Shown one piece after another: positions 6,039-32,716 of a stretch of 32,716 nucleotides of DNA (positions within the stretch are counted from its first letter, which is position 1; the number at the start of each line of letters is the position of its first letter). The notes beneath the pieces were generated by a model that was not told the DNA's origin, did no database searches, and saw nothing but the letters and a program-made list of their open reading frames with translations. The stretch is from Spirochaeta sp. (GTDB lineage Bacteria; Spirochaetota; Spirochaetia; DSM-27196; Alkalispirochaetaceae): NCBI GenBank assembly GCA_007130865.1, contig SLRR01000300.1, positions 1 to 32,716 on the forward strand. The letters are read 5' to 3'. The position numbers and the translations under genes are program-made.

Positions 6039-6047
6039 AGATTCTTT

Positions 6048-6076: not shown

Positions 6077-6081
6077 AATCA

Positions 6082-6103: not shown

Positions 6104-6122
6104 ACATCAGGAGGGCATGCCG

Positions 6123-8389: not shown

Positions 8390-10663
8390 TCACCGGCTGC
8401 TGATCGCCCTCCAGACGCGCTCGGGACTCAGCGGCAGATCACGGATCGCGACGCCGATAGCATCGCGAACGGCAGCTCCGAGCGCCGGAGCGACCACCAG
8501 CAGACTCCCCTCGCTGACGCCCTTTGCTCCGTACGGTCCGGGACCATCACCGTTCTCGATCGCATCGCTGATCAGTTCCAGCGGCAGGTCCTTGCTGGTG
8601 GGAATGCGGTAGTCGATCGCGCCCAGATTGCGTACGCGGCCTTCCTCGTCAAAGATGTAGTGTTCCATCATCGCGTGACCGAGTCCCATGATCGCCGCTC
8701 CGTCGTCCTGCGCGCGCACCTGCATCGGGTTGAGGGATTTACCCGAGTCACCGACCGACACATGCCGGAGAACCGTGAATTGCCCGGTTTTCGGATCGAC
8801 ATCCACCTCGATCGCGGTACAGTTGAACTCGAAGAACGCAGCGGTCCCGCTGAGCGGATGGCCGGCAACCGCGTCCTTGCGTCCAATCCCGTTACCGATA
8901 ATCTCACCACCCATTTTACCGAGTCCCGCCTGCGCCACTTCAACGATCGTGCGCTCGCCGTCGGGTAGACGCACCACGCCGTCTTCCACGACGACCCGTA
9001 GTTCCTCCGCATCATACACGCGCGAAGCGATCGCCCTGATCTGAGCCTGGATATCCCGGCACGCGTTGAGCACCGCGGTACCCATGATTACGGTGGATCG
9101 GCTGGCGGATGTCTGCTGGTCGTACGGGACGGTAGCGGTATCGCCCATAACGACGGATATCCGTTCAACGGGAATACCCAGCTCCTCCGCTACGATCTGA
9201 GAGAAAACGGTACGCGCGCCCTGCCCCATGTCCGATGTACCGGAAAAAACGAAAGCACTGCCGTCGGCGAGCAGCCGTACCGTGGAATAGGAGAGCCCCG
9301 TCGTTGGACCGGATTTTGCGCCGACTGCGATCCCCCGCCCACGTCCCGGCGGCAGCGGGTCTCCCCAGTTGATCAGCTCCGCGGCGCGTTTCACCGCCTG
9401 CTCCCACCGCCCGTCCGCCGGCGTGTCGCCGGGAACGAACTCCTCGCCGTAACGTGCCAGGTTCTTAAGGCGGATGTCCAGGCGATCGATACCGAGCGAC
9501 AGGGCTCCTTCGTCGAGGTTCATCTCGCGCGCCCAGGAAGTTTCCGGAACTCCGAAGCCGCGCATCGCCGTAGCCGGCGGTGTATTGGAAAGTAGAGCGC
9601 GGGCAACAATTCGGACAGCCGGAAGCCGGTAGGGACCGCCGGCAAGGAAGTTGCCCTTGCTCACGACCCGGTCGGCGATATCCACGTACGCACCGATAAG
9701 AAAGTTGCTCTCGATATCTTCAAAGACCAGGGTACCGTCGTTCTTCAGACCCGTCCGGATACGCACCTTTGCAGACGTGCGCCGAACCGCCTGGAAACTC
9801 TCTTCCAGAGTAAGCACAAGGCGCATCGGGCGACCCGCGCGCAGGGCCATCAATGCCACCAGGGGCTGCACATTAGGCCACTGCTTCCCACCAAATCCTC
9901 CACCCGCATCCGGAGCGATAACGCGCACCTTGGAAAGAGGAAGATCAAGCACCTTTGCCAGGATTTTCTGCGCCTGAAACGAGTGCTGAATCGTCGTCCA
10001 GACGGTCACTCCGCCTTCATCGGGAGCCGCTACGCACCCGTGCGTCTCGATCGCAAAATGCGTGACGATCGGGTACTCGTAGGTATTGTCCACCACAAGA
10101 TCCGCCTCGGATTCCACGCTTTCCACGGTACCCCAACCAAAGCGGTGTTCCGAGAAAATGTTTGTTTCGGCCAGGGGATCGTCGGCGCGACGCAAAGATG
10201 GGTCCTGGACCAGCGGGGCGTTTGTCGCGAGTGCATCATCCACTGTTGTAACCCGGGGAAGATCCTCGTACTCAACCCGTACCAGGGCGACGGCTTCCTC
10301 CGCCGCCTCCTTCGTCTCCGCCGCCACGGCTGCAACCGGCTCTCCGTGATAGTTCACCTGGTCAACGGCGATCACCGGTCGATCCTGAACCTGCGGGCCA
10401 AAGCGAGGAACGGGCTGCGGCAGATCCGCGGCGGTAATAACCATCCGTACACCCGGCACCTTTTCCGCCTCGCTCGTATCTATCGAGATGATGCGGGCCC
10501 GGGCCGATTGTATCGTCACCAGTTTTACCTGGAGGACATCAGCGATCTTCAGATCCGCAAAGTACTGCTGACCGCCGGTAACGCGCGCCAGGCCACCGGA
10601 ACGGGAAGGAGACATCCCGATCGAACGATGGGTCGTCGGTTTGGTATCCAGGTTAGTGCTCAT
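8390..10663 (-). CDS. XDH-family molybdopterin-binding catalytic subunit, set B (complete)
   Basis: A 757-residue large subunit. The N-terminal domain (about 20-130) has LARVTGGQQYFADL and VITAADLP. Mo-cofactor motifs are DAGGGFGGKQ, TAMRGFGVPE (xanthine-dehydrogenase-like RGFG rather than the CODH AYRCSFR loop), GTSDMGQGARTV, and near the C-terminus GPYGAKGVSEGS with the presumed catalytic Glu. It should hydroxylate a heterocycle or oxidise an aldehyde using water as oxygen donor. The start at 10663 overlaps the 2Fe-2S gene stop by 4 nt. The FAD, 2Fe-2S and Mo subunits form a compact operon from 12008 to 8390 with its own promoter and palindromic operator. The substrate is not determinable. 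Confidence 0.95.
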   Translation of the reverse strand: MSTNLDTKPTTHRSIGMSPSRSGGLARVTGGQQYFADLKIADVLQVKLVTIQSARARIISIDTSEAEKVPGVRMVITAADLPQPVPRFGPQVQDRPVIAVDQVNYHGEPVAAVAAETKEAAEEAVALVRVEYEDLPRVTTVDDALATNAPLVQDPSLRRADDPLAETNIFSEHRFGWGTVESVESEADLVVDNTYEYPIVTHFAIETHGCVAAPDEGGVTVWTTIQHSFQAQKILAKVLDLPLSKVRVIAPDAGGGFGGKQWPNVQPLVALMALRAGRPMRLVLTLEESFQAVRRTSAKVRIRTGLKNDGTLVFEDIESNFLIGAYVDIADRVVSKGNFLAGGPYRLPAVRIVARALLSNTPPATAMRGFGVPETSWAREMNLDEGALSLGIDRLDIRLKNLARYGEEFVPGDTPADGRWEQAVKRAAELINWGDPLPPGRGRGIAVGAKSGPTTGLSYSTVRLLADGSAFVFSGTSDMGQGARTVFSQIVAEELGIPVERISVVMGDTATVPYDQQTSASRSTVIMGTAVLNACRDIQAQIRAIASRVYDAEELRVVVEDGVVRLPDGERTIVEVAQAGLGKMGGEIIGNGIGRKDAVAGHPLSGTAAFFEFNCTAIEVDVDPKTGQFTVLRHVSVGDSGKSLNPMQVRAQDDGAAIMGLGHAMMEHYIFDEEGRVRNLGAIDYRIPTSKDLPLELISDAIENGDGPGPYGAKGVSEGSLLVVAPALGAAVRDAIGVAIRDLPLSPERVWRAISSR

Positions 10664-11142
10664 TTCTTCACCGCCTTTGACTTTGAAACGTCAAGAATCG
10701 CCTCGGTCATCTGCTCGTACCCGGCACACCGGCAGAGATTGCCTGCCAGCGCCTCCTGTATTTCCTCTACCGTGGGGCTGGAGTTACGCGTCAGCAGATA
10801 GTGCGCCGACACGAGTTGTCCCGAGATACAGAAACCGCATTGTGCGGCGCCGTGATCGAGAAAAGACTGTTGCAGCGGGCTTGGTTTTCCCCCGGACGCG
10901 AGGCCCTCCACGGTGAGGATATCGCACCCGTCCGCTTCAACCGCCAGCATCAGGCAGGAATTCACTGTTCGACCGTTCACGATCACGGTACACGCACCGC
11001 ATTCCCCCACCACGCAACACTCCTTGGTTCCGGTAAGGCCAAGGTCGTCCCGAAGAAGATCGAGCAGCGTGTGGCACACGGGAACATCCACGCTGTAACG
11101 CTGACCGTTTATCGTCAGCTCTATCGGATATCGATCACTCAT
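10660..11142 (-). CDS. XDH/CODH-type (2Fe-2S) subunit, set B
   Basis: A 160-residue small subunit with two 2Fe-2S clusters. The ferredoxin-type cluster uses C43, C48, C51 and C63 (CVVGECGACT). The second uses C102, C105, C137 and C139 (CGFC, CRC). It transfers electrons between the Mo subunit at 8390-10663 and the FAD subunit at 11139-12008. Both gene ends overlap their neighbours by 4 nt (ATGA), indicating coupled translation. It resembles the set A small subunit at 2349-2828 in length and in the AGNLCRC region. Confidence 0.95.
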   Translation of the reverse strand: MSDRYPIELTINGQRYSVDVPVCHTLLDLLRDDLGLTGTKECCVVGECGACTVIVNGRTVNSCLMLAVEADGCDILTVEGLASGGKPSPLQQSFLDHGAAQCGFCISGQLVSAHYLLTRNSSPTVEEIQEALAGNLCRCAGYEQMTEAILDVSKSKAVKK

Positions 11143-12008
11143 ACTGGAATTCCTTTCGATAATCGTTCTATCGCAGCCTGCAGGGCGCGGTATCCAAGCA
11201 CCGGGAGCATCGCGAGGCGGTAATCGGGCCCCGCGCGCATCGACCGAGGAGAAGGACTCGCTCCCGCCAGCATCTCCGTCAGAACCGGCATCTTCGCTTC
11301 CTGCGATGCGTTCGGATCGGCCAAAACGCCGCTCGTGTCAAACTCCAGCACCGGCCGGGGTCCGACGCTCCCGTAGGAGAGTCGCGTGACACCCTTCTCG
11401 TCGACGCCGACGCATAGCGTAACCGAAGCAAGATCGGTACCGCGTCTTCTTGTGAGGCGAGTGTAGGCCGAGCCCATCGAGAGCGTCGGTAAAGGAACGT
11501 CGATCCGCGTAACCAGTTCCCCCGGTTGCAGCGTAGTCTTCCTGGACCGCACGAAAAAATCGTCCAGCGGGATCGTACGCGCTCCGCCTGGACCAACCGC
11601 CTGAATCGAGGCTCCGTACACCAGGAGCGGAGGAGCGGTATCGGCCGCGGGGGAAGCATTGCAGATATTCCCGACGACGGTCGCGCGGTTGCGGATCTGC
11701 ACGGACCCTACCCAGCGCGCCGCTTCCGCGAGCGCCGGAAAGTGGTGCTGTACGTCGACGTTCTCTTCCACATCGGTCATCACCGTGGTGGCGCTGAGAC
11801 GCAGAACACCATCTTTTATTCGCACCTCGGGATCCAGTTCCGAAATATACTTGAGATCGATAATGATCTTCGGATCCACCTGCCTCCCCCGGAGAGCGAT
11901 CACCAGATCGGTACCACCCGCGAGAATATGCGCATCCGCACCGTACTCGGCGAGCAGGTCCAGAGCTTCCGCAACTGTCCCGGGTCGTACATACTTAAAG
12001 CACCGCAT
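11139..12008 (-). CDS. XDH/CODH-type FAD-binding subunit, set B
   Basis: A 289-residue FAD subunit with ILAGGTDLVIALRG near residue 30 and VGSVQIRNRATVVGNICNAS near residue 102. TRLTRRRGTDLASV lies in the C-terminal half. It is the first gene of the set B operon. Its ATG at 12008 follows a purine-rich AAGGTGG. A good promoter (12073-12101) and a 16-bp palindrome (12109-12124) lie upstream. The gap from the AOR/MoaD-like operon is 185 nt, so set B is probably transcribed independently of that upstream unit, though read-through is possible. Confidence 0.94.
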   Translation of the reverse strand: MRCFKYVRPGTVAEALDLLAEYGADAHILAGGTDLVIALRGRQVDPKIIIDLKYISELDPEVRIKDGVLRLSATTVMTDVEENVDVQHHFPALAEAARWVGSVQIRNRATVVGNICNASPAADTAPPLLVYGASIQAVGPGGARTIPLDDFFVRSRKTTLQPGELVTRIDVPLPTLSMGSAYTRLTRRRGTDLASVTLCVGVDEKGVTRLSYGSVGPRPVLEFDTSGVLADPNASQEAKMPVLTEMLAGASPSPRSMRAGPDYRLAMLPVLGYRALQAAIERLSKGIPV

Positions 12009-12101: not shown

Positions 12102-12108
12102 CGAAAAT

Positions 12109-12124
12109 CGATAATCGATTATCG
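12109..12124. promoter_or_regulatory. palindromic operator CGATAATCGATTATCG, copy 1
   Basis: A perfect 16-bp palindrome upstream of the set B promoter. It recurs with small changes at 15862, 18704, 21175 and 27978, always at the start of a transcription unit. Its position upstream of the -35 could mean activation here rather than repression. Confidence 0.7.
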
Positions 12125-12193: not shown

Positions 12194-12466
12194 CTACCAG
12201 AACGTAATAGTTGCTCCGTCGAGTATCGGCTGATCAGGCTTAAGCACGCCCCTGGGTACCGATCCGATCTCTCCGTAATAGATCATCGTGTTAAGCGTAA
12301 GGACGCTTGCAGCTGTGTCCAGAAACATCTCGGAGAAACCACCGTACTTTCCGTCGAGTTCCCGGATAAGATCGCCTATCGTACATGCATCCGTCTCGTA
12401 AAACTCACCAAGCTTGCGGGTAATCGGATAAACCGCCGCGACATACTGCAGGTTCAGTTTCTTCAC
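12194..12466 (-). CDS. MoaD/ThiS-like small protein lacking the C-terminal Gly-Gly
   Basis: A 90-residue protein starting with GTG at 12466, overlapping the AOR stop by 4 nt. The pattern (KKLNLQYVAAVYPITRKLG, TIGDLIRELDGKYG, MIYYGEIGSV, LKPDQPILDGATITFW) resembles the ubiquitin-like fold of MoaD, which often accompanies AOR-type tungsten enzymes and carries sulfur for pterin cofactor synthesis. Canonical MoaD ends PPxxGG after the final DGDEVxFF strand. Here the protein stops at ITFW with TAG at 12194-12196. The other two frames past the stop show no nearby GG tail, so a simple frameshift does not explain it. It may act structurally in the AOR complex, or be a decayed carrier. Similarity is by eye and moderate. 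Confidence 0.6.
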   Translation of the reverse strand: MKKLNLQYVAAVYPITRKLGEFYETDACTIGDLIRELDGKYGGFSEMFLDTAASVLTLNTMIYYGEIGSVPRGVLKPDQPILDGATITFW

Positions 12467-14412
12467 CCCGTCACCTCGATTCCGTTACTTTCCAGATCCG
12501 TTATCACATCAACAAGGTCGAGCTCCGTCAGCTTTGCCCGCGTCGGCACGCTCGTCACCAGGTCCCATCCGTTTTCGGCGTAGTATTCGTCCAGCATCGT
12601 ATCCAGCACATCCCGACTTATGCGCTTGTACCCGAAGTCCGGCACGTCTTCGTGGCTCATCCGATACGGAACCCGATCGTCAACGCGGGAAAACCCTTCC
12701 CGAACGTTAAACAACCGATCCATGTTCATCAGACGCTCACCGGCACGCACCAGCTGCTGATACTCCAGGTCCAGTCCGGTCACGGCGTTAAACAGCTTCC
12801 ACCACGGACGCAGATCCAGTCCCAGGGTATCCCGCACCAGGAAGACGCAGCTCGGTAATGCTTCCACCACGGCTCTGCTTATCGTAAACCACCGCAGGAG
12901 TTTTCCTTTCTGCTCGGGATTACGCGTGTCGAACGCGAGTGTCAGATCCAGATCTATACCAAGCTCCCGCAACTCCCCGGGGCTGATAATCCCGGGATTC
13001 GGCGGATACGGGGGATACCAGCGCGTATGGTCGGGCCCAACCTCACTCACGGCGATCCCCAGCGCCACCATCAGCAGGTTTCGTTGAGTAATCGCTTCCA
13101 GCTCCTGGCCTTTCACGGCGAGACAATATTTCTCCGTGCCGCGCCCGACGATTCTCGCTGCTTCCGAGCAACCCAACGCGAGCAATCCGCCGAATCCTTC
13201 CTTGCGGGCGATTTTTCCTACAAGCTCGATGAGCGATTCATGGTCGTTCATGCCGAAGCGTAGTTCCACCCCGTCGGTATCGATGGTGGTAAGCAACCCC
13301 CTCTCAAAACACTCCATCGCCCAGGACAGGGTAAATCCAACGTGAAAGATATCGAGCCCGTACTGATTACAGAGCCCCGACAGAACCAGGACGAGGTCAA
13401 GGTCTCCGTTGTCGATCCCGGATCCGAGAGCGACCGGCTGTCCCGCCCAGTAGTTACCTCCGCGAAATCCCCGGTGTTTGCCTTTCTCGATCTGGAACGT
13501 CTTTTTACACCCCGGCCACGGACAATTGAAGCATGCCTGGCCGCGGCGGACGTAGTCGTCCATGAAAATCTCCGACGATATCGCCCGTGCTTTTTCCTCT
13601 TCCCAGGTCATCACCTGAGCGTTGCGGGTCATCAGATTTCCGAGACTCGGGAACAAACGGGAGAGAACGGGTGCGCCGTAGGTCGACCAGACCGGCGTCC
13701 ACATGTCACGTGACGTCCGAAGATCCAACCGTGTTCTGAATTCCCTGTACGCGTCGACGAACTTATCGTAGTCGTGCGGTTTTACACCGCCGTGACCGCG
13801 CACGACGATCGCCTTGAGTTTCTTTGCGCCCATCACTTCACCGCCGCCGGCGCGTCCCCCGGCGGAGTCGCGACCGCTGAAGACCATTGCGGCGTGGACG
13901 CCGTTCTCTCCCGCAGGGCCGATATAGAGACAGTGTGCGTCGGGATCCCTGATCTCCCGGTAGAGCGCGTCGTCGGTATCGTAGGTGGTTTTACCCCAGA
14001 GATGCCGGGCATCGCGGATTTCCACCGTTTCGTCCTCGATGAAGAGATACACCGGATTCTCTGCAATTCCGCGTATCGCCACGTACTCGTATCCGGCACG
14101 ACGCAGTTCCGGTCCGAAGAATCCCCCCACGCTTCCCTCACCGATACAGCCGCGAGGTGACTTCGTAGCAATGGAAAGGCGTCCCATGCCGACGGGGAAC
14201 CCGTCCATTGGCCCGGTTCCGATGAACAGAACGTTATCAGGCCCGAGCGGATCCGTTCCGGAGGGTACGTCACGGAAAAGCAGTCGGCTCGTTATTCCGC
14301 GTGTTCCGAGAAACAGCGCAGTGTATTCGCCCGGCAGTTCTTCGATCCAGGTTTTGCGTTCGGTGAGATCCACGTGCAGAACGCGCTGCCGTATGTTGTC
14401 ACGTACGGTCAT
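12463..14412 (-). CDS. aldehyde:ferredoxin oxidoreductase-family (tungsten/molybdenum bis-pterin) enzyme
   Basis: A 649-residue AOR-family protein. The family oxidises aldehydes to acids, or reduces acids, with ferredoxin at a tungsten-bis-pterin centre. The N-terminal beta domain (1-210) has VLHVDLTERKTW, GTGPMDGFPVGMGR, GGFFGPELRRAGY and MGAKKLKAIVVRG. The 4Fe-4S ligands are C294, C297 and C302 (CFNCPWPGC), with the fourth probably C522 (LPSCVF). AVKGQELEA near 432 matches the usual AVKG(L/M)E motif. The start at 14412 overlaps the ferredoxin stop as ATGA; the open frame upstream of it reads through the ferredoxin gene and is not real. The operon order is ferredoxin, AOR, MoaD-like, suggesting a dedicated electron partner. 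The substrate may be an aldehyde made by neighbouring dehydrogenases (inference). Confidence 0.93.
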   Translation of the reverse strand: MTVRDNIRQRVLHVDLTERKTWIEELPGEYTALFLGTRGITSRLLFRDVPSGTDPLGPDNVLFIGTGPMDGFPVGMGRLSIATKSPRGCIGEGSVGGFFGPELRRAGYEYVAIRGIAENPVYLFIEDETVEIRDARHLWGKTTYDTDDALYREIRDPDAHCLYIGPAGENGVHAAMVFSGRDSAGGRAGGGEVMGAKKLKAIVVRGHGGVKPHDYDKFVDAYREFRTRLDLRTSRDMWTPVWSTYGAPVLSRLFPSLGNLMTRNAQVMTWEEEKARAISSEIFMDDYVRRGQACFNCPWPGCKKTFQIEKGKHRGFRGGNYWAGQPVALGSGIDNGDLDLVLVLSGLCNQYGLDIFHVGFTLSWAMECFERGLLTTIDTDGVELRFGMNDHESLIELVGKIARKEGFGGLLALGCSEAARIVGRGTEKYCLAVKGQELEAITQRNLLMVALGIAVSEVGPDHTRWYPPYPPNPGIISPGELRELGIDLDLTLAFDTRNPEQKGKLLRWFTISRAVVEALPSCVFLVRDTLGLDLRPWWKLFNAVTGLDLEYQQLVRAGERLMNMDRLFNVREGFSRVDDRVPYRMSHEDVPDFGYKRISRDVLDTMLDEYYAENGWDLVTSVPTRAKLTELDLVDVITDLESNGIEVTG

Positions 14413-14804
14413 ACCACGTCTCCGTCGGGTGCACGCGCCCGGTCCTCGCCGGGCCGACGCCAGGGGAACGGCCACTTCCACGGAGCGACCACCTTGAACA
14501 GGCCATGCTCGCGACGAGCCGCTTCGTAATCGAGACGAACCTCCGCCGCGCGGTCGTGTTCGGCGTAAATCAGCGCGCCCGTAGGGCATAGTCCGACACA
14601 GGTCGGCCGCATGTCCTCATACAGCGATCTGATGCAATCCCCGTCGCAATGTACGATCGGCACCGATTTGTCGTCGCCGGGGATTTTGATCACCCGAATC
14701 GGTCCGGCATCGGCGCAGAAAACGCCAGACTCCAGAGATGAACAGAAAGACTCACATAAACGACACCCGTTACAAAGGTCTTCAATCACGTAAATCCGTT
14801 TCAT
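14409..14804 (-). CDS. 2[4Fe-4S] ferredoxin-like electron-transfer subunit for AOR
   Basis: A 131-residue Fe-S protein. One cluster is CNGCRLCESFC (C11, C14, C17, C21). The second can be formed by C53, C57, C69 and C73 (CDGDC...CVGLCP). The cysteines at 30 and 57 are extra or alternative ligands. After residue 85 the sequence is charged and lacks further cysteines. It resembles the HycB/AorA-like ferredoxin subunits found directly before AOR genes and should pass electrons to or from the tungsten enzyme. It is the first gene of the unit. No strong Shine-Dalgarno sequence is visible before the ATG at 14804. The upstream 102-nt gap is shared with the divergent AraC gene. Confidence 0.88.
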   Translation of the reverse strand: MKRIYVIEDLCNGCRLCESFCSSLESGVFCADAGPIRVIKIPGDDKSVPIVHCDGDCIRSLYEDMRPTCVGLCPTGALIYAEHDRAAEVRLDYEAARREHGLFKVVAPWKWPFPWRRPGEDRARAPDGDVV

Positions 14805-15891: not shown

Positions 15892-17589
15892 ATGGATCCC
15901 GTAAAAGACACCAGCCCGGTGCTGGCACAGTTTCTAGGTGACAAGGATTTTCCCGTCGACTGGGAAGACGACGAGGAAAAGAAACTATTCTGGTTCTACG
16001 ACGACAACCACTGCCCGTTCCCGATCTCACCCATGTGGTACAGTTTGAACGGATGGTGGGGTCCGACCTGCGAGTATCTCTTCCGTCGGTTCGATATCGA
16101 TACCGGCGTACGGTGGCACGGCAAGAAAGTAAACGGTTACCTGTACACCGCGATCGAACCGCGGGATCCCAAGGACGTTCCGGAAGTTCAGAAATACTAC
16201 CATTGGATCATGCCCACCTACGCTATGAACTTCCTGGAATGGTGGAAGAAACGGTACTTGCCGGAGATTCTCAGAAACTTTGAATACCTGGACAATTTTG
16301 ACACGGAAAACGCTACGGTTCAGGAACTCATGATCTACCTGGAAGAGGCGATCGATATCCAGGAACGACATTTCCGCCTGCACTGGATCCTGAACTGGGC
16401 CCAGTTCGCCGCGTCGATGAATTTCAACGGAGTCGCCAAGTCACTTATCCCCGACGTCGATCCGGATAAGCTCGGTAAAGTAAACGTCTCCCGGGAAGAC
16501 CGCAACTGGGACAGTCTCAAAGCGCTCTATGACCTGAAAGAAGCTGTGAAAAACAGCAAGGAGCTCCGGTCCATCTTCGACTCCGCCGAGACCGCCACCG
16601 AAATTCGCCCCGTACTGGAAGGAAACGCCGCCGGCCGCGCGTTCCTAAAGGATCTTGCCGCCTACGCAAAGGAGTTCGGATACAAGGCAGTCTACCCTCA
16701 CGAGTACGTGTTCAAAACGTACGTCGAGGACGACACGCCGATCCTGGAACAGATCAAGGGGTATCTCGCATCCGACTGGAACTACCACGACGTGTACGAC
16801 AACGCTATTCGGGAACAGGACCAGGCGATCGCGTACCTCCGGGACAAGGTCAAGGACAAGTCCTCTGAGGAAAAACAGCAGTTCGAGAACGCTCTCAAAT
16901 TGAACCTCAATATGCTGCCCCTGACACCGGATCACCACTTCTACATGGACCAGGGTACGTGGGCCCGCATGCGTCTCACGCTCATCGCCGTGGGCAAACG
17001 TCTCGTAAAGGACGGCTTGCTGGACGACCAGGAAGACATCATGATGCTTACCCACGAGCAACTGCGGCGGTATGTTCCCGATCCTGAAAACTATCCCGGG
17101 CGGAAACTGATCGCCGAAGCCAAGGCAAAGATCAAGGAAGCGGAAAAACTCACCCCGCCCGACTGGGTCGGTACAGTCACCAAGTGGAACATGTACGAAG
17201 AACCGTACCACACACTCTGGGGTTATCCGGAACGGTTTGAGCGGAAGCAGAAAGGCGAAAGTGTAAAAGGCGTCGTCGATGGCGTCCCCGCTTCACCGGG
17301 TGTTGTAGAGGGCATCGCGCGCGTCGTGAAGAGTCCGGCGGAGTTTGATTCCGTCAAACAGGGTGAGATCATCGTTTGTATCATGACAAACCCCGCGTGG
17401 GTCGTTGTTTTCAGCAAGATCATCGCGATCGTCACCGACTCCGGTGGCGCCCTTTCTCACTCGGCGGTGGTAGCGAGAGAATTCATGATTCCCGCCGTGG
17501 TAGGTACCGGAAGCGCTACCAGGGAGATCAAAAGCGGCGACCGGATTCGCGTCAACGGTAACGAAGGAAAGGTTACGATTATCGAATAA
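15892..17589 (+). CDS. PEP-utilizing enzyme with C-terminal phosphohistidine swivelling domain, no ATP-grasp domain
   Basis: A 565-residue protein. The C-terminus (about 475-565) is the mobile phosphohistidine domain of PEP synthase/PPDK-type enzymes: VDGVPASPGVVEGIARVV, then TDSGGALSHSAVVAREFMIP with the presumed phospho-acceptor H523. Residues 1-470 are a large, tryptophan- and tyrosine-rich, mostly helical region without an ATP-grasp nucleotide-binding domain or a PEP-binding barrel. It somewhat resembles the substrate-binding part of rifampin phosphotransferase or the large subunit of phenylphosphate synthase. No ATP-grasp partner is in the window. AGGAGG lies 6 nt before the ATG at 15892. 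It is probably monocistronic, with an operator upstream and a hairpin downstream. The likely role is phosphoryl transfer to the pathway substrate, in need of a partner; this is inference. Confidence 0.8.
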   Translation: MDPVKDTSPVLAQFLGDKDFPVDWEDDEEKKLFWFYDDNHCPFPISPMWYSLNGWWGPTCEYLFRRFDIDTGVRWHGKKVNGYLYTAIEPRDPKDVPEVQKYYHWIMPTYAMNFLEWWKKRYLPEILRNFEYLDNFDTENATVQELMIYLEEAIDIQERHFRLHWILNWAQFAASMNFNGVAKSLIPDVDPDKLGKVNVSREDRNWDSLKALYDLKEAVKNSKELRSIFDSAETATEIRPVLEGNAAGRAFLKDLAAYAKEFGYKAVYPHEYVFKTYVEDDTPILEQIKGYLASDWNYHDVYDNAIREQDQAIAYLRDKVKDKSSEEKQQFENALKLNLNMLPLTPDHHFYMDQGTWARMRLTLIAVGKRLVKDGLLDDQEDIMMLTHEQLRRYVPDPENYPGRKLIAEAKAKIKEAEKLTPPDWVGTVTKWNMYEEPYHTLWGYPERFERKQKGESVKGVVDGVPASPGVVEGIARVVKSPAEFDSVKQGEIIVCIMTNPAWVVVFSKIIAIVTDSGGALSHSAVVAREFMIPAVVGTGSATREIKSGDRIRVNGNEGKVTIIE

Positions 17590-18703: not shown

Positions 18704-18724
18704 CGATAATCGATAACATACAAT
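18696..18724 (+). promoter_or_regulatory. candidate promoter of the dehydrogenase/lactonase unit
   Basis: TTGCTC (18696-18701), a 17-nt spacer and TACAAT (18719-18724), the same -10 as in the binding-protein promoter. The spacer is filled by the operator copy at 18704-18719, so a bound repressor would block polymerase. Confidence 0.5.
18704..18719. promoter_or_regulatory. palindromic operator copy 3 (CGATAATCGATAACAT, degenerate)
   Basis: Matches CGATTATCGATAATCG at 12 of 16 positions. It is placed between two divergent genes, inside the plus-strand promoter spacer and next to the minus-strand start codon. It is the weakest of the five copies but is well positioned. Confidence 0.5.
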
Positions 18725-18753: not shown

Positions 18754-19833
18754 ATGACAATACCGGAAGAAATGGACGCCCTGGTTTTGACGGGGCCTGG
18801 AACGTTTGAGGTACGGAAAGAACCGGTACCGCATCCCGGTCCGGGAGAAGTCCTGTGCAGAATACGGGCGATCGCGATCTGCGGGAGTGATCCCGAGATC
18901 ATCCGGGGGGATATCGCCGGGTACTGGCCTCCCCACTACCCGTTCATCGCAGGTCATGAGTGGTCCGGTGAGGTTGTCGCTCTCGGAGAAGGGGTTACCA
19001 ACTTCAGAGAGGGAGACCGCGTCGCCGGAGAAGCGCATAAGGGATGCGGATACTGCTCGCGATGCCTGGAAGGTCGATACAACTTGTGCCGTAACTACAT
19101 GAAGCCGGAAACGGGTCACCGCCATTACGGGTTTACCAATAACGGCGCGTACGCCCAGTACAACGCGTACTCGGTGAAGGCGATCACCCACCTTCCGGAC
19201 AACCTCTCGTTTCGGGAGGGCGCTCTCATCGACACCGCGGGAATCGTGGCTCACGCGATGGAACTCACCGGGATCACCCCCGGTGGCACGGTGGCCGTTA
19301 TCGGACCGGGTCCGATCGGACTGATCGCGCTTCGTCTCGCCCGCGCCCTCGGAGCCGCCCGGACGATCATCGTCGGTCGAAAACCACGTCTGGCCGCGGC
19401 GGAGTCAACCGCGGACCACCTGGTCGATTTCGAGTCGAGCGACCCCGTCGATACCATACGGACGATAACCGGCGATTTCGGCGTGGACGAGGCTTTTGAG
19501 TGTTCCGGAGCCCTGGGCACGTTCAACCAGGCGGTACGCATCGTGAAACGGGGTGGTCGGATCGGCCTGCTGGGCGTACCACCAAAGGACGTGGTGGAGG
19601 AATTACCGTTCGCCTACATCGTGGCAAATGAGATAGCCGTATTCGGTTCCAAGGCGAATCCGCACGTTGCCGCCGGCGTTCTCCGGCTTTGCGCGTCGAA
19701 ACAGCTTCCGATCAGGGACCTGATTACACACGCGTTCCCGCTGGAGTCGTTCGGCGACGCGCTTGATACGTTTGTCCGCCGACGCGAGGGCGCTTTGAAG
19801 GTGGTGATCGAACCGCACGGCCCGGAGCTCTGA
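18754..19833 (+). CDS. zinc-dependent alcohol/polyol dehydrogenase (MDR superfamily)
   Basis: A 359-residue medium-chain dehydrogenase. Catalytic zinc ligands are C43 (ICGSD) and H68/E69 (GHEWSG). The structural zinc lobe is C98, C101, C104 and C112 (CGYCSRC...LC). The Rossmann loop GPGPIG is at about 184-189. The family oxidises secondary alcohols of polyols, sugars or sugar acids with NAD(P), for example sorbitol or threonine dehydrogenases. AAGGAG precedes the ATG at 18754 by 11 nt; an alternative ATG at 18772 would drop six residues. The lactonase starts 12 nt after its stop, so the two form one operon. A dehydrogenase followed by a lactonase suggests oxidation of a cyclic hemiacetal, or a following step (inference). 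Confidence 0.92.
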   Translation: MTIPEEMDALVLTGPGTFEVRKEPVPHPGPGEVLCRIRAIAICGSDPEIIRGDIAGYWPPHYPFIAGHEWSGEVVALGEGVTNFREGDRVAGEAHKGCGYCSRCLEGRYNLCRNYMKPETGHRHYGFTNNGAYAQYNAYSVKAITHLPDNLSFREGALIDTAGIVAHAMELTGITPGGTVAVIGPGPIGLIALRLARALGAARTIIVGRKPRLAAAESTADHLVDFESSDPVDTIRTITGDFGVDEAFECSGALGTFNQAVRIVKRGGRIGLLGVPPKDVVEELPFAYIVANEIAVFGSKANPHVAAGVLRLCASKQLPIRDLITHAFPLESFGDALDTFVRRREGALKVVIEPHGPEL

Positions 19834-21174: not shown

Positions 21175-21190
21175 CGATTATCGATAATCG
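21175..21190. promoter_or_regulatory. palindromic operator CGATTATCGATAATCG, copy 4
   Basis: A perfect 16-bp palindrome covering about +2 to +17 of the binding-protein transcript, a classical repressor position. It is made of the same half-sites as copy 1, with their order exchanged. Confidence 0.75.
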
Positions 21191-22598: not shown

Positions 22599-23795
22599 TT
22601 ATTTATGAACTTCGCGAAACGCGTCAAGAAGTGCGTCGGCAAACTGAGAATCGTTGATATTGAACGGAAGCCGGATCACCGTTCGGCACCCGGTCTCATG
22701 TACTGTTTCTTCTATTGCGCTGAACAGCGCCTCATCCGCCTCGGGATCATGAAAGGGTTGTCCCTCGGCGTCCAGCAGCGAGACGCCTTTTTCCGGTAAG
22801 AGGAATCGCACCTCGCCCTGCATTTGATTGAGCTTTTCACCGATCCAACGTCCCGCAGCCCGGTTCTCCGCGACCGTAGTCCGCATGAGCGTCACGTTCG
22901 CGTTATGAATGTAGAGATTGCGGTGGGAGAACTCCTTGGGAACCGTGTCGCGGGCGGCGAAGTTCACCATATCAAGAGCCCCCGCGGACCCTACGTACGG
23001 AATGCCTCGTCGTATCACCGCTCCCAGACGATCTTCCCCGGCGCTCATGATTCCGCCTACGATCAGATCGGCGATCTCCGTCGTGGTCACATCGATAATA
23101 TGGGATATCATCCCCGAGTCGATCAGTTTTTCCATCGATCGGCCACCGGTGCCGGTAGCGTGAAACACAAGCGGATCGTATTCAGTCTCTATGCGACCGC
23201 GAATCGCCGTGACGCAGGGCGTGGTGACTCCGAACATCGTCATTCCGAGGGTAGGTTTCTCCTCGGCACGGTTGGATACGGCGTTCATTGCCATACCAGC
23301 GACGGCGTGTGCCGCGTTACCCAGAACAACCCGGGAGATCCGATTGATACCGGCCACGTCGGTGACCGAATACGTCATCGTGATATCACTCGGTCCCACA
23401 TACGGCGCGACGTTGCCGCTGGCCATCGTGCTCACCATCACTTTGGGCACGCCTACCGGTAACCGTTGCATCGCGGCGGTCACGAGGGCGGTGTTCCCGG
23501 AACCTCCGATTCCGATCACACCGCCGATATCCTTCCGCGAGAGAAGAAACTCCGCGAGCGCTGTCGACATAAGTCCGACCGCTTCTCCACGATCATCCAC
23601 CGTACCGAGAAATCCGGGACGACTCGGGTGAAACGCTGCAATATCCCGGTTCGTAACGTCCGCCTGCGCGGTCCCGGGAAGCGACGAAACATCCACCGTA
23701 ATTACTGCGGCACCGGCCTCCCGTACACAATCCGCTACATACTGCAGTTCGTCCGACTTGGTATCAAACGTTCCCACTACGTAGACAGCGTTCAT
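22599..23795 (-). CDS. Tm-1-like / UPF0261 family protein
   Basis: A 398-residue protein of the family related to the ATP-binding N-terminal domain of the tomato Tm-1 resistance protein. It opens MNAVYVVGTFDTKSDELQYVAD. A glycine-rich IGGSGNTALVTAAMQRLPVGVPKVMVST lies near residues 95-125, and TYSVTDVAGINRISRVVLGNAAHAVAGM follows. The fold comprises two Rossmann-like domains. Biochemical function in bacteria is not established to my knowledge. It lies 8 nt downstream of the PEP-hydrolase-like gene; the two correspond to the N- and C-terminal halves of plant Tm-1. GAGGTGA precedes the ATG at 23795. It is last in the Liv transporter operon, so a role in processing the imported solute is likely (inference). 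Confidence 0.9.
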   Translation of the reverse strand: MNAVYVVGTFDTKSDELQYVADCVREAGAAVITVDVSSLPGTAQADVTNRDIAAFHPSRPGFLGTVDDRGEAVGLMSTALAEFLLSRKDIGGVIGIGGSGNTALVTAAMQRLPVGVPKVMVSTMASGNVAPYVGPSDITMTYSVTDVAGINRISRVVLGNAAHAVAGMAMNAVSNRAEEKPTLGMTMFGVTTPCVTAIRGRIETEYDPLVFHATGTGGRSMEKLIDSGMISHIIDVTTTEIADLIVGGIMSAGEDRLGAVIRRGIPYVGSAGALDMVNFAARDTVPKEFSHRNLYIHNANVTLMRTTVAENRAAGRWIGEKLNQMQGEVRFLLPEKGVSLLDAEGQPFHDPEADEALFSAIEETVHETGCRTVIRLPFNINDSQFADALLDAFREVHK

Positions 23796-23803: not shown

Positions 23804-24637
23804 TCAAAATTTCAGAGACTTGAATTCCTCGATCCGGTCGGTAATTGCGGTTTCCACCGGCAGGCGCTCCATTGAACTTGCACCATAGAACCCGTCGATA
23901 CCGTTAACGTTCCGAAAAACGTACTGAGCATCCTCAGGCGTCGCGATAGGACCTCCATGGCACAAAACGATCACGTCGGGGCGCTTCTTTTTAGCGGCAT
24001 CGACAATCGCCTGGACGATCTCGGAACTCTGATCAAGGGACATCGCGGTCTCCGCCCCGATCGACCCTTTGGTGGTTAGTCCCAGGTGGGCGACGATAAC
24101 ATCGGCTCCCGCCTCCGTCATCGCGGTTGCCTGGTCCGGGGTAAATACATACGGCGTTGTAAGCAAATCGAGCTCATGCGCTTCCCTGATGAGGTCGATC
24201 TCAAGCTGATACCCCATCCCCGTTTCCTCGAGGTTCTTCCGGAAATTACCGTCGATCAGTCCGACCGTTGGAAAGTTCTGGATTCCCGCGAACCCGAGAT
24301 CTTTCAGTTCCTGCAGGAGATGTGTACGCAGCATGAACGGGTCGGTTCCGTTCACGCCCGCCAGGACCGGTGTATGCGCGACGGCCGTAAGAACCTCGCG
24401 CGCCATTTCCTTGACGATATCGTTCGCATTGCCGTAGGCCATCATACCCGCGAGAGATCCGCGACCGGCCATCCGGAAGCGACCGGAGTTATAGATCACG
24501 ATCAGGTCAATACCTCCGGCTTCTTCACACTTGGCCGAAATTCCCGTGCCGGCACCGCCGCCGATAATCGGTATGCCGTTGCGAACCTTTTCGTGAAAAC
24601 GTTCCAGAATTGCGGTTCGACTCATTGTGGCACCCAT
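23804..24637 (-). CDS. PEP hydrolase-like TIM-barrel protein (Tm-1 C-terminal-domain family)
   Basis: A 277-residue TIM barrel of the phosphoenolpyruvate hydrolase-like family (PF09370 type). Motifs include [104 protein letters not shown] and [12 protein letters not shown]. The true activity of most members is unknown, and the PEP-hydrolase label comes from a small number of proteins. I chose the ATG at 24637 because GGAGG lies 5 nt upstream; an in-frame ATG at 24655 lacks a site. It follows livF by about 20 nt and precedes the UPF0261 gene by 8 nt, reproducing the two halves of plant Tm-1 as separate genes. Confidence 0.9.
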
Positions 24638-24657
24638 CACGACCTCCTCGATCATTC

Positions 24658-27977: not shown

Positions 27978-27993
27978 TGATAATCGATTATCG
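27978..27993. promoter_or_regulatory. palindromic operator copy 5 (TGATAATCGATTATCG)
   Basis: Matches CGATAATCGATTATCG at 15 of 16 positions, with the inner GATAATCGATTATC a perfect palindrome. It lies downstream of the livH promoter, between the start of transcription and the ribosome-binding site. Confidence 0.75.
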
Positions 27994-28008: not shown

Positions 28009-28037
28009 ACTTTACGGCGCTTTTCGCGCCCTGTCAA
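28009..28037 (-). promoter_or_regulatory. sigma-70 promoter of the livH operon
   Basis: On minus: TTGACA (28037-28032), a 17-nt spacer, TAAAGT (28014-28009). The -35 overlaps the stop codon of the transaldolase gene. The spacer holds a small GGCGC-GAAAA-GCGCC hairpin that could also weaken read-through from the transaldolase transcript. Confidence 0.6.
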
Positions 28038-29113
28038 CGATCCGGATCCGGCACCAGGTAGTCCCGCATCATCGCGATAAGCGCATCGTAACTTGCGGTG
28101 AAGGAACGGAGGGTACGGGCGGTAGCACCGTACGTATCAAACTCCCCCACCGCGAGCCCCTCCGGCTCCCAGGCACGGTTAAAATCGACAAACTTCTCCC
28201 TCAGTCGATCCAGAAAGCGCGCCGGAACAGGGTCATGAATACGATCACGTACTTCCACGTCTGAATCGTTGAAGCGCAACGCCCATTTGTACGGAATCGT
28301 GGCGATAAGATCTCCACCGATAAACTGTGACCAGTGGTAGTGATTGCGGTACGCCGCGGCCATGAGCCGGGAACGATAGCCCCGCTCCTGAAAGATTTCG
28401 TACGCGCGCTTGAGCACGGCTACACCCGCCCACTCCAGGCAGTCCGGTTCGACTATGATGTCTTCCTTGTTGGCCACAATCTTCAACCAGTCGTCCACGC
28501 GACCGACCATCACGACGCAATTGGGAGATATGCGGTCGATCGGCAGGTTTTCCTGAACGCGTCGCTCCAGGCCGCGCTCCACCGCTTCCGCCGCGGCTAT
28601 AACCTGGGATACGGTGAACGAAACTGTGGCGGTTATGCTGATTCCGTGATACGTAGCTTCCTCGATCGCGTCGATGCCGGCGGTAGTGGCCGGAAACTTC
28701 ACCGTCACGTTTTCTATCAGATCCTGAAAGTGTCGTGCCTGTGTGACCATGGCGGCGCTATTCCGAAAGTTCCGCGGATCGACCTGGACCGCGATCCGCC
28801 CTTTACGGCCGTTGTGCGCGTTGTATACCGGCTTCAGCATCGCCGCGCCGGTACTTGCCACGGACTCGATCATTGTCCAGGCAATATCGATTTCCGTTGC
28901 AGCCGGCGACTGCTGTACCACCTGTCGTATCCGTTTTTCCCACTGGTCTATCTGCTCGTTAAGTACCGCGTGGACGATCGTCGGGTTGGTCGTTGCACCG
29001 GTCGCACCGTGCGACAGCGCGTACGCCAGATGATCGGTGTTGCACGTATCGCTCCAGTAATCGGTAGCGGTGTCGTTTGCCGTCTTCAGAAGCGGACTCT
29101 CGTATGTGCTCAT
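28034..29113 (-). CDS. transaldolase-family protein
   Basis: A 359-residue TIM-barrel aldolase. GATTNPTIV (residues 39-47) is the transaldolase entry motif. NVTVKFPATTAGI contains the presumed Schiff-base K139, and HGISITATVSFTVSQVI follows. Transaldolases move a dihydroxyacetone unit between sugar phosphates. At 359 residues it is in the long class and may be a pathway-specific paralogue. I chose the ATG at 29113; an in-frame TTG at 29125 would overlap the transketolase stop. The gene follows the transketolase with almost no gap, so the two are one unit for non-oxidative pentose-type carbon shuffling. Confidence 0.9.
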   Translation of the reverse strand: MSTYESPLLKTANDTATDYWSDTCNTDHLAYALSHGATGATTNPTIVHAVLNEQIDQWEKRIRQVVQQSPAATEIDIAWTMIESVASTGAAMLKPVYNAHNGRKGRIAVQVDPRNFRNSAAMVTQARHFQDLIENVTVKFPATTAGIDAIEEATYHGISITATVSFTVSQVIAAAEAVERGLERRVQENLPIDRISPNCVVMVGRVDDWLKIVANKEDIIVEPDCLEWAGVAVLKRAYEIFQERGYRSRLMAAAYRNHYHWSQFIGGDLIATIPYKWALRFNDSDVEVRDRIHDPVPARFLDRLREKFVDFNRAWEPEGLAVGEFDTYGATARTLRSFTASYDALIAMMRDYLVPDPDR

Positions 29114-29121
29114 ATTGATCT

Positions 29122-31200
29122 TCAAACCTTTCCTGACTCGATTGATTCTTTCACCCTGGCGGTGATGCTTGCCGGATCCAGACCGGATTGTTTCAACAGC
29201 TGATCGTACGTTGCAGAATGCAGATACCGGTATTCACCGTCCGGCCCGTTGCAGTCAATCGTCACCAGGCGGCGGGGGGCGTGCGCAATACCGCGTCGAA
29301 GGAGGAACTGTGCCAGCTGGTGCCGGATATAGCCGTTGTTCTGTTCCGCGATTACCACTGTTCCCTTCCCGGCCAGCCGCGCCTCCAGAAACTCTCCGTT
29401 AAAAGAGTGCATATCGATCACTTCCGCGGAGATTCCCTCCTTTTCGAGAATGCTTGCCGCTTCAACGATCTCGTGCACACCACGCCCGCTTGAGACCAGA
29501 TGCACCACGCTCGACTCGTCCCCGCTCAGAACGTCCGGCCGGCCAAACTCGAACCGGTAACCCGGGGCGTACAGCACACCGGAACCGGCGCGCATGATCC
29601 GGATATAGGTCAACCCGCGGTTTCCCTCCATCACCCATCGCATCACGCCCACCATCTGGTTGGGACAGGATACGTCGATGATCTTGAGTCCTGCGATGCC
29701 GCTGAAGATGATCGCGTCGTCGTTACCCATGTGGGTGGCACCGTTGACGCGCGTTTCGAAGTTTGACGCTGTCGCAAGAAATGTCAGATCCAGCCCGTGT
29801 CCTTCCGAGAGCCAGCTCCCAGGATCGGCGATCGCCTCACGGCGCTCCTGGTACCCAACCGCGATCCGGCGGAGTACTTTCCAGTCAAAGAAGGGACAGA
29901 AGGTGCTCACCCAGGCGTTGTACCCCAACGCTGCGTACGCTTCACCAATGCACATCATGTTCGATTCGGCGACACCTACGTTCAGTGCGCGGGTCTGGTC
30001 GATAGCGCCCACACCACCTTCAAGCCCGCTGGTTGAGCCGAGGTCGGAGTCCACCGATACGACCCGTTCGTCCCGGGAGAAGACGCGCATACACGCCGTT
30101 ACGACGTCGTTCGCGGCAACGGTCCTTCCCATCTCGTAGGACGGCAACGCATCGGGGTCATACCGGATCGCCTTGTCCCGGGAAGGAACTTTCCCGGACC
30201 GGGGTTTCACTCTCACCGTGGAAACCGAGTTCTTCTCTACTCGCAGGTGCATCTCCTCGGCACGGCGGCGCAACTCCTCGACCAGGAGCGTATGTCCCTG
30301 ATCCGTCAGCCCTTTCAGGAACGCGATCATTGCCGACTCCCGGCTGTGGCGACGGCTTTCCTGCAGTGCCACCTCTGCTTCGTAAACGCTTGTTCCGAGT
30401 GTGACCTTGTGTTTGTTGAGACCCGCGGAGAACGCGCCGTGTCCTTTGCGGGTGTTGCAGACAATCGCCGTCGGACGACCATCCCGGGGAGAACGCACAA
30501 ACGTGTCGAGAGCGGCGGTCACATCGCTGTAGCTGGTACCGTCGACGGAAAGCACTCTCCATCCGAAGGACTCGATCTGCTGAGCGAGGTTGTCCATCGG
30601 AAAGATCAGCTGCGCGGAATTGTCGAGCTGTCCCTCGTTCTTGTCTACCAGGACGCACAGATTATCCAGACGCTCCTGCGGGGCGTACATGATCGCCTCC
30701 CAGGCAACGCCTTCCTGCAGCTCGCCGTCGCCGGTGACGCAGTAAACATCAAACGTAGGATCCCGCCGACCCGCCAGGGTAAATCCCTGCGCCACGGCGA
30801 GCCCCTGGGCCAACGGCCCGGTAGCGATCTGCACGCCGGGCAGGATCGGTCCTGGGTGACCGTTGAGTATGCTCTCTATCGACCGGGAGTTCTCGAGTAT
30901 CGCCGGTTCGATGTACCCCAGGTCCGCGTAGATTGAGGCGAGCGTCGCCACGGCGTGACCTTTGCTCAGGACGAACATGTCCTGGCCGATTCGAGTCGGG
31001 TTCTGAATATCAAGACCAAGGTATCCCCCGTAGAAGAGACTCACCATGGGGATCGTCGCCGAGAACGCTCCCCCGATGTGAACACCCTGATCCACCGCGG
31101 AAAATCCCTGCTTGAGTACGGAGATTCTGATATCTGAATCTTTGATCTTGAGCAGACCCGCCATACCCCGGGCCAGCAACTCCTTGTCGATTTCTTTCAT
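29122..31200 (-). CDS. transketolase (full-length, fused N- and C-terminal parts)
   Basis: A 692-residue transketolase. The N-terminal part has LSKGHAVATLASIYADLGYI, GHPGPILPGVQIATGPLAQGLAVAQG, and the thiamine diphosphate motif GDGELQEGVAWEA through NEGQLDN. The C-terminal pyrimidine domain has LNVGVAESNMMCIGEAYAALGYNAWVSTF. Many anaerobes split this enzyme into two genes; here it is one chain. It transfers two-carbon ketol units between sugar phosphates. GGGAGG lies about 8 nt upstream of the ATG at 31200. It sits 26 nt after the XDH Mo-subunit of set C and directly before the transaldolase, so it is probably a pathway-specific enzyme rather than the sole housekeeping transketolase (inference). 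Confidence 0.93.
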   Translation of the reverse strand: MKEIDKELLARGMAGLLKIKDSDIRISVLKQGFSAVDQGVHIGGAFSATIPMVSLFYGGYLGLDIQNPTRIGQDMFVLSKGHAVATLASIYADLGYIEPAILENSRSIESILNGHPGPILPGVQIATGPLAQGLAVAQGFTLAGRRDPTFDVYCVTGDGELQEGVAWEAIMYAPQERLDNLCVLVDKNEGQLDNSAQLIFPMDNLAQQIESFGWRVLSVDGTSYSDVTAALDTFVRSPRDGRPTAIVCNTRKGHGAFSAGLNKHKVTLGTSVYEAEVALQESRRHSRESAMIAFLKGLTDQGHTLLVEELRRRAEEMHLRVEKNSVSTVRVKPRSGKVPSRDKAIRYDPDALPSYEMGRTVAANDVVTACMRVFSRDERVVSVDSDLGSTSGLEGGVGAIDQTRALNVGVAESNMMCIGEAYAALGYNAWVSTFCPFFDWKVLRRIAVGYQERREAIADPGSWLSEGHGLDLTFLATASNFETRVNGATHMGNDDAIIFSGIAGLKIIDVSCPNQMVGVMRWVMEGNRGLTYIRIMRAGSGVLYAPGYRFEFGRPDVLSGDESSVVHLVSSGRGVHEIVEAASILEKEGISAEVIDMHSFNGEFLEARLAGKGTVVIAEQNNGYIRHQLAQFLLRRGIAHAPRRLVTIDCNGPDGEYRYLHSATYDQLLKQSGLDPASITARVKESIESGKV

Positions 31201-31226: not shown

Positions 31227-32716
31227 TCAGTCCTGTAATGCTTCCCAGATGCGTTGCGGAGTTAGAGGCAGATCTCGTACCACCCTGCCGACCGCATCGT
31301 ATAGCGCCGCCGCAACTGCCGGCGGGAGAGCCAGAATGCCGCCCTCCGCAGCACCTTTTGCACCGTACGGCCCCGGTCCGTCGCCGTTCTCAACGTGCAG
31401 CGAGATCAGCTCCTCCGGGGTGTCCATCGTCGTGGGAATCCGGTAGTCCAGCGAACCAAGATTGAGCACCCGCCCGCGATCGTCCATCACGTAGTGTTCC
31501 ATCAAGGTGTGACCCAGCGCCTGAATCGCACCGCCATCGTCCTGCATAGCCACGTGCTGCGAGTTGAGTGCCCGTCCCACGTCGGCGACGGTCACAAGCT
31601 TGTGAAACACGATCATCCCGGTTTCCCGGTCAAGTCCGATCTCCACTGCGGTACACGTGACCTCGTAAAACGCGGGCCTGCCGTTCAGCGGATGATCCTC
31701 GACGTACTCGGCCCGAGCCGACCCGGTACCGATCACTTCGCCTTTAACCTTGCTGAACCGCTCCGCCATTACCTCGGTAAAAGTCTTTCTTCCGACGGCA
31801 CATTCGATCACTCCCGGTTCAACGATCCGCGCCTCACATCCGTAATACTCCTCGGCGATCTCACGAACCTGTCGCGCCACATCACGACTCGCCCGGAGCA
31901 CGGCGTTTCCCATGAATACCGACGATCGACTCGCCGACGTCTGGAGGTCGAAGGGAACACTCTGGGTGTCGCCCATCGCCACCAGGATGTTCTCCACGGG
32001 CAATCCGAGTTCTTCCGCCGCGATCTGTGTATATACCGTGCGCGCGCCCTGACCCATATCCGAGGTGCCGGCGTGAACGGTGGCACTGCCGTCGGGGTGC
32101 AGACGTACGATCGAGTAGGACGCTCCCGTGGTAGGGCCGAACTTGAGCCCCATCGCCAATCCCCGGTAACGGCCCGGAGGACGGGGAGCATCCCATCCGA
32201 TCGCGTCGGCGCCCTTCTGAAGCGTTTCCACCCAGCGTCCGTCCGCGGGAGGATCGTCGGGCATGAAAGTCTCGCCAAACTCCGCTAGATTTCTCATACG
32301 CAACTGCACCGGATCGATATCAAGACGACGAGCTCCCTCGTTTATCTGGCACTCTACAGGCCAGTTGGACTGGGGAATTCCGAATCCCCGCATCGCGGTG
32401 CTCGGCACGGTATTTGAAAAAACGCCCCGCGCGAGGATCCTAACGTGCGGTACACGATAGGGTCCGGCGGCCGCGTATCCTCCTTTTGCTATCAGGCGAC
32501 CGGCGATATCCTCGTACGCGCCGATCAGGTAGTTAATCTCAAGATCCTGAAAAACGATCCTTCCGTCCCGGCTGAAACCGGTCCTGATGTGTGCCTCCGC
32601 GGACGTACGGCGAACCGCCTGGAAACTCTCCTCCAGAGTGAGCTCCAGGCGCAGCGGACGGCCGATTCTCGTCGCGAAGTACGCCAGAAGCGGTTCGTAC
32701 TTCGCGTGCTGCTTCC
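31227..32716 (-). CDS. XDH-family molybdopterin-binding subunit, set C, C-terminal two thirds (cut by window edge)
   Basis: The frame is open from the right edge to a stop at 31227 (about 495 residues). From the edge it reads KQHAKYEPLLAYFATRIGRP, following the expected GGFGGKQ motif, then GPYRVPHVRILARGVFSNT, TAMRGFGIPQ, GTSDMGQGARTVYTQI, and GPYGAKGAAEGG with the presumed catalytic Glu. It is closely similar throughout to the set B catalytic subunit at 8390-10663. The N-terminal part and any small and FAD subunits lie outside. It is followed on the same strand, 26 nt later, by transketolase, making an XDH-transketolase-transaldolase unit. Confidence 0.94.
   Translation of the reverse strand, partial: KQHAKYEPLLAYFATRIGRPLRLELTLEESFQAVRRTSAEAHIRTGFSRDGRIVFQDLEINYLIGAYEDIAGRLIAKGGYAAAGPYRVPHVRILARGVFSNTVPSTAMRGFGIPQSNWPVECQINEGARRLDIDPVQLRMRNLAEFGETFMPDDPPADGRWVETLQKGADAIGWDAPRPPGRYRGLAMGLKFGPTTGASYSIVRLHPDGSATVHAGTSDMGQGARTVYTQIAAEELGLPVENILVAMGDTQSVPFDLQTSASRSSVFMGNAVLRASRDVARQVREIAEEYYGCEARIVEPGVIECAVGRKTFTEVMAERFSKVKGEVIGTGSARAEYVEDHPLNGRPAFYEVTCTAVEIGLDRETGMIVFHKLVTVADVGRALNSQHVAMQDDGGAIQALGHTLMEHYVMDDRGRVLNLGSLDYRIPTTMDTPEELISLHVENGDGPGPYGAKGAAEGGILALPPAVAAALYDAVGRVVRDLPLTPQRIWEALQD

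Follow-up and report, generated by a model that had tools for sequence, protein, structure and literature searches.

The Swivel Protein and Its Family

Within the window, the whole 32,716-nt stretch of DNA analysed here (Table 1), one gene encodes a 565-aa protein in which a helical substrate-binding domain is followed by a C-terminal phosphohistidine swivel domain. An earlier sequence-only reading had described this protein as having a complete swivel motif and no visible nucleotide- or PEP-binding domain in residues 1-470, and both points held. The ORF is intact and H523, the predicted phosphate-carrying histidine, lies within TDSGGALSHSAVVARE; PF00391 was the sole Pfam domain found, and residues 1-470 gave no Pfam match even at E-values up to 10. 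H523 is invariant in 14/14 sequences of the family alignment (A1) as well as in three PRK08296 members, and is equivalent, by motif, to H581 of HpeH and H825 of rifampin phosphotransferase (RPH). A Pfam scan found no PPDK_N/ATP-grasp gene on the window's contig.

Scanning of GTDB genome contigs revealed relatives of the window protein at 14 loci. Thirteen of these entered the full-length alignment together with the window protein, the one at L063 being broken into pieces. The 13 full-length orthologues are 44-79% identical, come from Spirochaetota, Chloroflexota, and Acidobacteriota, and all have the swivel histidine, which rules out a chance ORF. More than 100 columns of the 14-sequence alignment are invariant across the three phyla, indicating that the window gene belongs to a genuinely conserved family rather than being a truncated PEP synthase. 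While the swivel sequence is itself PEP-synthase-like, a catalytically inactive PEP synthase, whether degenerate or truncated, is extremely improbable given this conservation, the lack of any PEP-binding barrel or ATP-grasp remnant in Pfam and Foldseek searches, and the gene's own operator (see below).

Table 1. Features of the window and their coordinates.
Feature	Position	Strand	Basis
Operator-like cluster upstream of minus-strand XdhM/S/L operon	12102..12124		
Aldehyde:ferredoxin oxidoreductase (AOR)	12463..14589	-	
Perfect operator-like site CGATAATCGATAAT, 14 bp upstream of swivel start codon	15864..15877	-	Genome-wide pattern search
Predicted large component of two-component dikinase, 565 aa	15892..17589	+	ORF (ATG start); RPH profile and Foldseek matches; 26% identity to PRK08296/Pps-type
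Motif PLTPDHHFYMDQG, residues 343-355, putative second active-site motif of substrate-binding domain	16918..16956	+	Alignment of 14
Swivel domain, PF00391 match, residues 489-559	17356..17568	+	Pfam, E 3e-23
H523 codon, predicted phosphate-carrying histidine	17458..17460	+	Alignment and motif
Operator-like site before Zn-dehydrogenase gene (18754-19833)	18704..18717	+	
Operator-like site at 5′ end of ABC solute-binding protein gene	21175..21190		
Operator-like site at 5′ end of livH	27980..27993	-	
Transaldolase-like, ATP-grasp/Xdh operon	28034..29125	-	TAL_FSA, E 3e-41; L098
Transketolase-like, next gene of ATP-grasp/Xdh operon	29122..31200	-	Pfam Transketolase_N/pyr/C; same order in L095, L098
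XDH-family large subunit XdhL, cut by window end, continued on C88 after XdhM, XdhS	31227..32716	-	
121-bp exact overlap with end of partner contig C88	32596..32716	-	Identity to reverse complement

The N-Terminal Region Has an RPH-Like Fold

A profile of the 14 sequences matched residues 529-866 of RPH (5fbs; E 1.5e-43), a stretch that reaches the C-terminal end of RPH and takes in the swivel domain and a portion of the rifampin-binding domain. The AF2 model of the window protein had a mean pLDDT of 72.7 and a pTM of 0.68, being weak around residues 421-456, and RPH chains made up all six of its best PDB matches in Foldseek (E 3e-17 to 2e-14). TM-scores against these chains were ~0.5 with a large rmsd, which may reflect differing placement of the swivel and the body. 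These data support a resemblance of residues 1-450 to the substrate-binding domain of RPH. An ATP-grasp fold hidden in residues 1-470, which the earlier reading had proposed to look for by structure prediction and structural search, was rejected, as both the profile and Foldseek pointed to a fold like that of the RPH substrate-binding domain.

This domain contains the putative second active-site motif PLTPDHHFYMDQG, in which P343-Y351, D353, Q354, and G355 are invariant in the 14 sequences; H348 and F350 are kept in Pps-type proteins too. In the profile alignment, on which the placement of the motif (PLTPDHHFYxDQG) rests and which is possibly off by a residue or two, it falls at the position of the catalytic R666/E667/K670 of RPH, with Arg666-Glu667-Lys670 replaced by P346/D347/F350 in the window protein.

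A Probable ATP-Grasp Partner in the Same Locus

The genome (3.73 Mb in 303 contigs, a fragmented assembly 94% complete with 5.4% estimated contamination) has PPDK_N matches on five contigs, and its sole stand-alone ATP-grasp gene is C88:227-1198, encoding 324 aa. The product matches HpeI (9GOJ, E 3.9e-48) and the ATP-grasp domain of RPH (E 4e-47). In RPH the first phosphotransfer depends on the catalytic residues K22, R117, and T136 (PMC4844700); their aligned counterparts in the C88 protein are K21, R118, and T137. The PPDK_N genes on C284 and C110 were rejected as partners because they encode large multi-domain proteins. The C54 matches fall within an 889-aa frame, and the C124 match is a 70-aa fragment at a contig edge that could come from a second ATP-grasp gene. 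The large C284 and C110 proteins (L023, L024) lack PF00391, have N-terminal parts that look signalling-like by eye, and possibly represent other uses of the ATP-grasp domain. PF00391 matches on C235 and C74 look, by size and sequence, like PTS enzyme I.

C88 ends in 121 bases that exactly match the reverse complement of the window's final 121 bases, and no other contig has this sequence at full length. In joined numbering, the minus-strand ATP-grasp gene occupies ~34837-35808, 17.2 kb downstream of the swivel gene. It begins ~2.1 kb beyond the window's right end, which is the only reason why the window itself, as had been stated, contains no partner gene; the term "orphan" is not borne out, as the partner lies downstream on the opposite strand of the same locus. 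The join was deduced from the assembly and from synteny rather than from a read, and it is supported by L098, in the genome that holds L050, where the order LivH-TAL-TKT-XdhL-XdhS-XdhM-ATP-grasp on one unbroken contig is that of the window's right end plus C88. On the complete chromosome of L095 the order is swivel-GntR-HD-ATP-grasp-XdhM-XdhS-XdhL-TKT, and in G224 the swivel and ATP-grasp genes are 17.4 kb apart on a single contig. At its opposite end C88 breaks off within what is apparently a single HD-domain gene, in which C87 too has its right end; ~30 bp are lacking between the two contigs, and thus C87, C88, and the window very probably form one locus of ~49 kb. C87 (L018) encodes, at 9963-11645, a second large component that is 72% identical to the window protein, and one ATP-grasp gene appears to serve the two large subunits.

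The genes of this locus also share a candidate operator. CGATAATC is present in 14 exact copies in the window vs 1.6 expected, a count reached by 0/100 shuffles. There are three perfect copies of CGATAATCGATAAT in the 3.73-Mb genome, all in the dikinase locus: that before the swivel gene, one at C88:147-160, 66 bp upstream of the ATP-grasp start, and one at C87:3024. All copies with one mismatch are on C87, the window contig, or C116, and allowing up to two mismatches gave 55 matches vs 1 for the reversed control pattern. No copy with one mismatch or fewer was found in six other genome stretches totalling 81 kb. Among the relatives, L095, L097, and L098 have the operator in front of the ATP-grasp gene and L095 has it before the swivel gene as well, and the GntR/FCD regulator of the cluster is its likely predicted binder. 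The genome search for an operator-bearing ATP-grasp subunit, suggested by the sequence-only reading, recovered the 324-aa C88 protein; the operator was as foreseen, while the expected location elsewhere proved to be the same locus. On C116 (L049), a 3-hydroxyacyl-CoA-dehydrogenase-family (3HCDH) gene at 5316-6260 has two overlapping operator copies just upstream (6278-6298) and for this reason probably belongs to the regulon.

We also assessed co-occurrence across genomes. Across 296 Spirochaetota genomes, the large and the ATP-grasp component each had orthologues in two, and these two were the same for both, one being the window's own. ATP-grasp matches at E <= 1e-20 were present in 11 of the 15 distinct genomes having the large component, the window genome included (G224 and G303 are the same genome and were counted once). 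None at this threshold was found in G299, G302, G304, and G309, all MAGs with the large component; in G302 the usual place of the ATP-grasp gene between GntR and XdhM is sequenced and the gene is absent there. The best ATP-grasp matches in Chloroflexota and Acidobacteriota genomes are 34-37% identical and mostly unlinked.

HpeHI, CreHI, and PpsAB are two-component small-molecule dikinases, comprised of an ATP-grasp protein and a second protein homologous to RPH in the rifampin-binding and swivel domains; AMP is formed, and activity is lost in H581Q (Dexter et al., 2025, PMC12167813). It is highly probable that the window gene encodes the large component of such a dikinase, paired with the C88 ATP-grasp protein. 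Domain content, fold, and pairing (shared operator, synteny, and co-occurrence) were computed here, and the phosphotransfer chemistry was inferred from homology. The suggestion that the protein is half of a phenylphosphate-synthase- or RPH-like dikinase is thus supported by the RPH-like fold, the profile match, and the finding of the partner.

A ~300-aa P-loop protein with HPFHSSAVRYKGKTILFLGGENNHGKS, weakly PEPCK/HprK-like and tied to the swivel cluster, is encoded on C87 (L018) at 8954-9856, and the same kind of protein is present in L051, L052, L053, L056, L058, L061, L063, L097, and L098. It matched no Pfam or NCBIfam family above cut-off, its AF2 model (pLDDT 31) was unusable, and it is possibly a regulatory kinase or an alternative phosphoryl handler. 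Were this protein, or the PTS, to phosphorylate the swivel protein in place of the ATP-grasp protein, one could account for the fact that most loci encode a GGE(N/S)NHGKS-bearing protein beside the swivel gene or close to it, among them those of G302 and G304, which gave no ATP-grasp match, and for the resemblance of the swivel domain to that of PTS enzyme I. We consider this very unlikely, since the P-loop protein is absent from the window and was not found in L055, L059, L060, and L062, its PEPCK match is weak (E 0.001-0.02), the ATP-grasp protein co-occurs with the swivel protein and shares its operator, and the fold is that of RPH, whose donor is an ATP-grasp domain.

Gene Neighborhood and Candidate Substrate

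The conserved neighbors of the swivel gene encode transketolase, transaldolase, an SMP-30-type lactonase, a cupin, a Zn-dehydrogenase, an HD-domain protein, the HprK/PEPCK-like P-loop protein, and XDH subunits, and the window additionally has a 7-blade lactonase, AOR, and a xylose-isomerase-like TIM barrel. AOR genes, one of them 60% identical, lie directly 3′ of the swivel gene in the Anaerolineae locus L055. The transaldolase (363 aa) and transketolase (692 aa) at 28034-31200 score far below standard model cut-offs and are apparently a divergent pair dedicated to the dikinase pathway. UPF0261 (Tm-1-like) and PEP-hydrolase-like TIM-barrel genes occupy 22599-23795 and 23804-24655; UPF0261 also adjoins the Pps-type pairs in other Spirochaetota (L091, L092, and L093) and is near the swivel gene in L055. 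At 4491-6038 lies a gene whose 515-aa enolase-superfamily-like product gave no hit in Pfam and only a weak one to menC.

Proteins over the PRK08296 cut-off were found in three Spirochaetota genomes, each with an adjacent ATP-grasp gene. These pairs (L091, L092, and L093) have UbiD-like genes nearby, plus CBS or UbiX-like flavoprotein genes (neighbors Pfam-confirmed for L091 and L092, assigned by sight for L093). Their neighborhoods resemble the phenylphosphate synthase layout, and from this UbiD/CBS context PRK08296 presumably includes PpsA itself.

No UbiD match was found in the window's genome (94% complete). Together with the gene neighborhood, this favors a sugar- or cyclitol-like (polyhydroxylated) hydroxyl over phenol as the substrate; such a compound is the likeliest candidate, albeit a speculative one, and phenol its main rival. 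The same two-component dikinase may instead act on phenol or another aromatic hydroxyl, the XDH-like genes then being hydroxybenzoyl-CoA-reductase-like. All characterized two-component members do act on phenols (PMC12167813), and the best NCBIfam model for XdhL is 4-hydroxybenzoyl-CoA reductase alpha, although below cut-off. The pps genes of D. anilini adjoin 4-HBCR and CODH-type subunits, and Pps clusters can hold XDH-type reductases (PMC6114531), so that the XDH genes seen here are compatible with an aromatic substrate. We nonetheless regard an aromatic substrate as rather unlikely, considering the missing UbiD where Pps-type pairs of the same phylum adjoin UbiD, UbiX-like, and CBS genes, the deep separation from Pps-type proteins, and the nature of the neighbors (transketolase, transaldolase, SMP-30 and 7-blade lactonases, cupin, and a Zn-dehydrogenase whose best NCBIfam model is scyllo-inosose 3-dehydrogenase, below cut-off).

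Proposed Mechanism and Implications

In the mechanism that we propose, the C88 protein would bind ATP and the swivel domain would dock at it, H523 accepting the beta-phosphate (ATP -> AMP + Pi). The swivel would then return to the helical domain (approximately residues 20-450), where the phosphate would be passed from H523 to a hydroxyl of the pathway substrate, and the phosphorylated sugar- or cyclitol-derived compound would enter transketolase/transaldolase chemistry. Two large components, those of the window and C87, and one ATP-grasp component would thereby operate within one operator-linked catabolic locus. We tentatively suggest that this is a distinct dikinase subfamily, in which a non-aromatic sugar- or cyclitol-derived substrate is fed to a dedicated transketolase and transaldolase and two large subunits of different specificity share one ATP-grasp subunit.

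An apparent orphan has in this way become a defined pair with a predicted operator, a single ATP-grasp subunit being shared by two large subunits that are candidates for conferring specificity. The characterized two-component dikinases in the literature found are phenol kinases, and the window clade keeps the machinery in a different conserved catabolic cluster. The spread of this cluster over Spirochaetota, Chloroflexota, and Acidobacteriota offers a test of the split dikinase as a general route of catabolic phosphorylation.

Comparison With Known Systems

PEP synthase and PPDK likewise have ATP-grasp and swivel domains, but the window protein has no PEP/pyruvate-binding TIM barrel and no ATP-grasp domain in the same chain, and its swivel domain is C-terminal rather than central. 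For the prodigiosin ligases PigC and RedH, the ATP-grasp part of the model matches the partner and the middle and swivel parts match the large component; however, these are single-chain proteins from a different context, and the matches are far below the model cut-offs. RPH-Lm (5FBS/5FBT/5HV1) is the best structural match of the whole protein, also has a C-terminal swivel domain, and has its ATP-grasp residues K22/R117/T136 kept in the partner. In contrast to its three domains in one chain, two polypeptides are present here, identity is ~20%, and by profile alignment the catalytic Arg666-Glu667 is not kept.

With the three Spirochaetota proteins of Pps type (PRK08296), the window protein has 26% identity over 551 aa and shares H40, W117, W118, H164, H348, F350, and swivel residues; identities to the Pps-type sequences compared span 23-29%. 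PRK08296 models match it over its full length (E 4e-58), scoring 197 bits against a cut-off of 578 and thus below it, and in a tree with long branches it falls, with full support, in a deep clade separate from the Pps-type proteins. Given this score, identity, and placement, the window protein probably shares the mode of action of Pps/Hpe dikinases without being phenylphosphate synthase proper, whose UbiD-type phenylphosphate carboxylase was not found in this genome.

The closest functional parallels are PpsAB (Thauera), CreHI (Corynebacterium), and HpeHI (Rhodococcus); in the literature found, only the 2025 HpeHI paper names this kind of enzyme. As in these systems, the large component has an RPH-like substrate domain and a C-terminal swivel histidine within T/SxxGGxxxH (TDSGGALSH in the window protein), the small component is a stand-alone PEP-synthase-type ATP-grasp protein, and both belong to a catabolic gene cluster, the assignment of the separate ATP-grasp component (C88:227-1198) to the same pathway resting on operator, synteny, and co-occurrence. 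HpeH and its homologues have M two positions before the histidine, whereas the window family has L or V. Unlike in the known pairs, the genes here are not adjacent but ~17 kb apart on opposite strands, two large paralogues accompany one ATP-grasp gene, and in place of UbiD the neighbors are transketolase, transaldolase, lactonase, and a sugar-type dehydrogenase.
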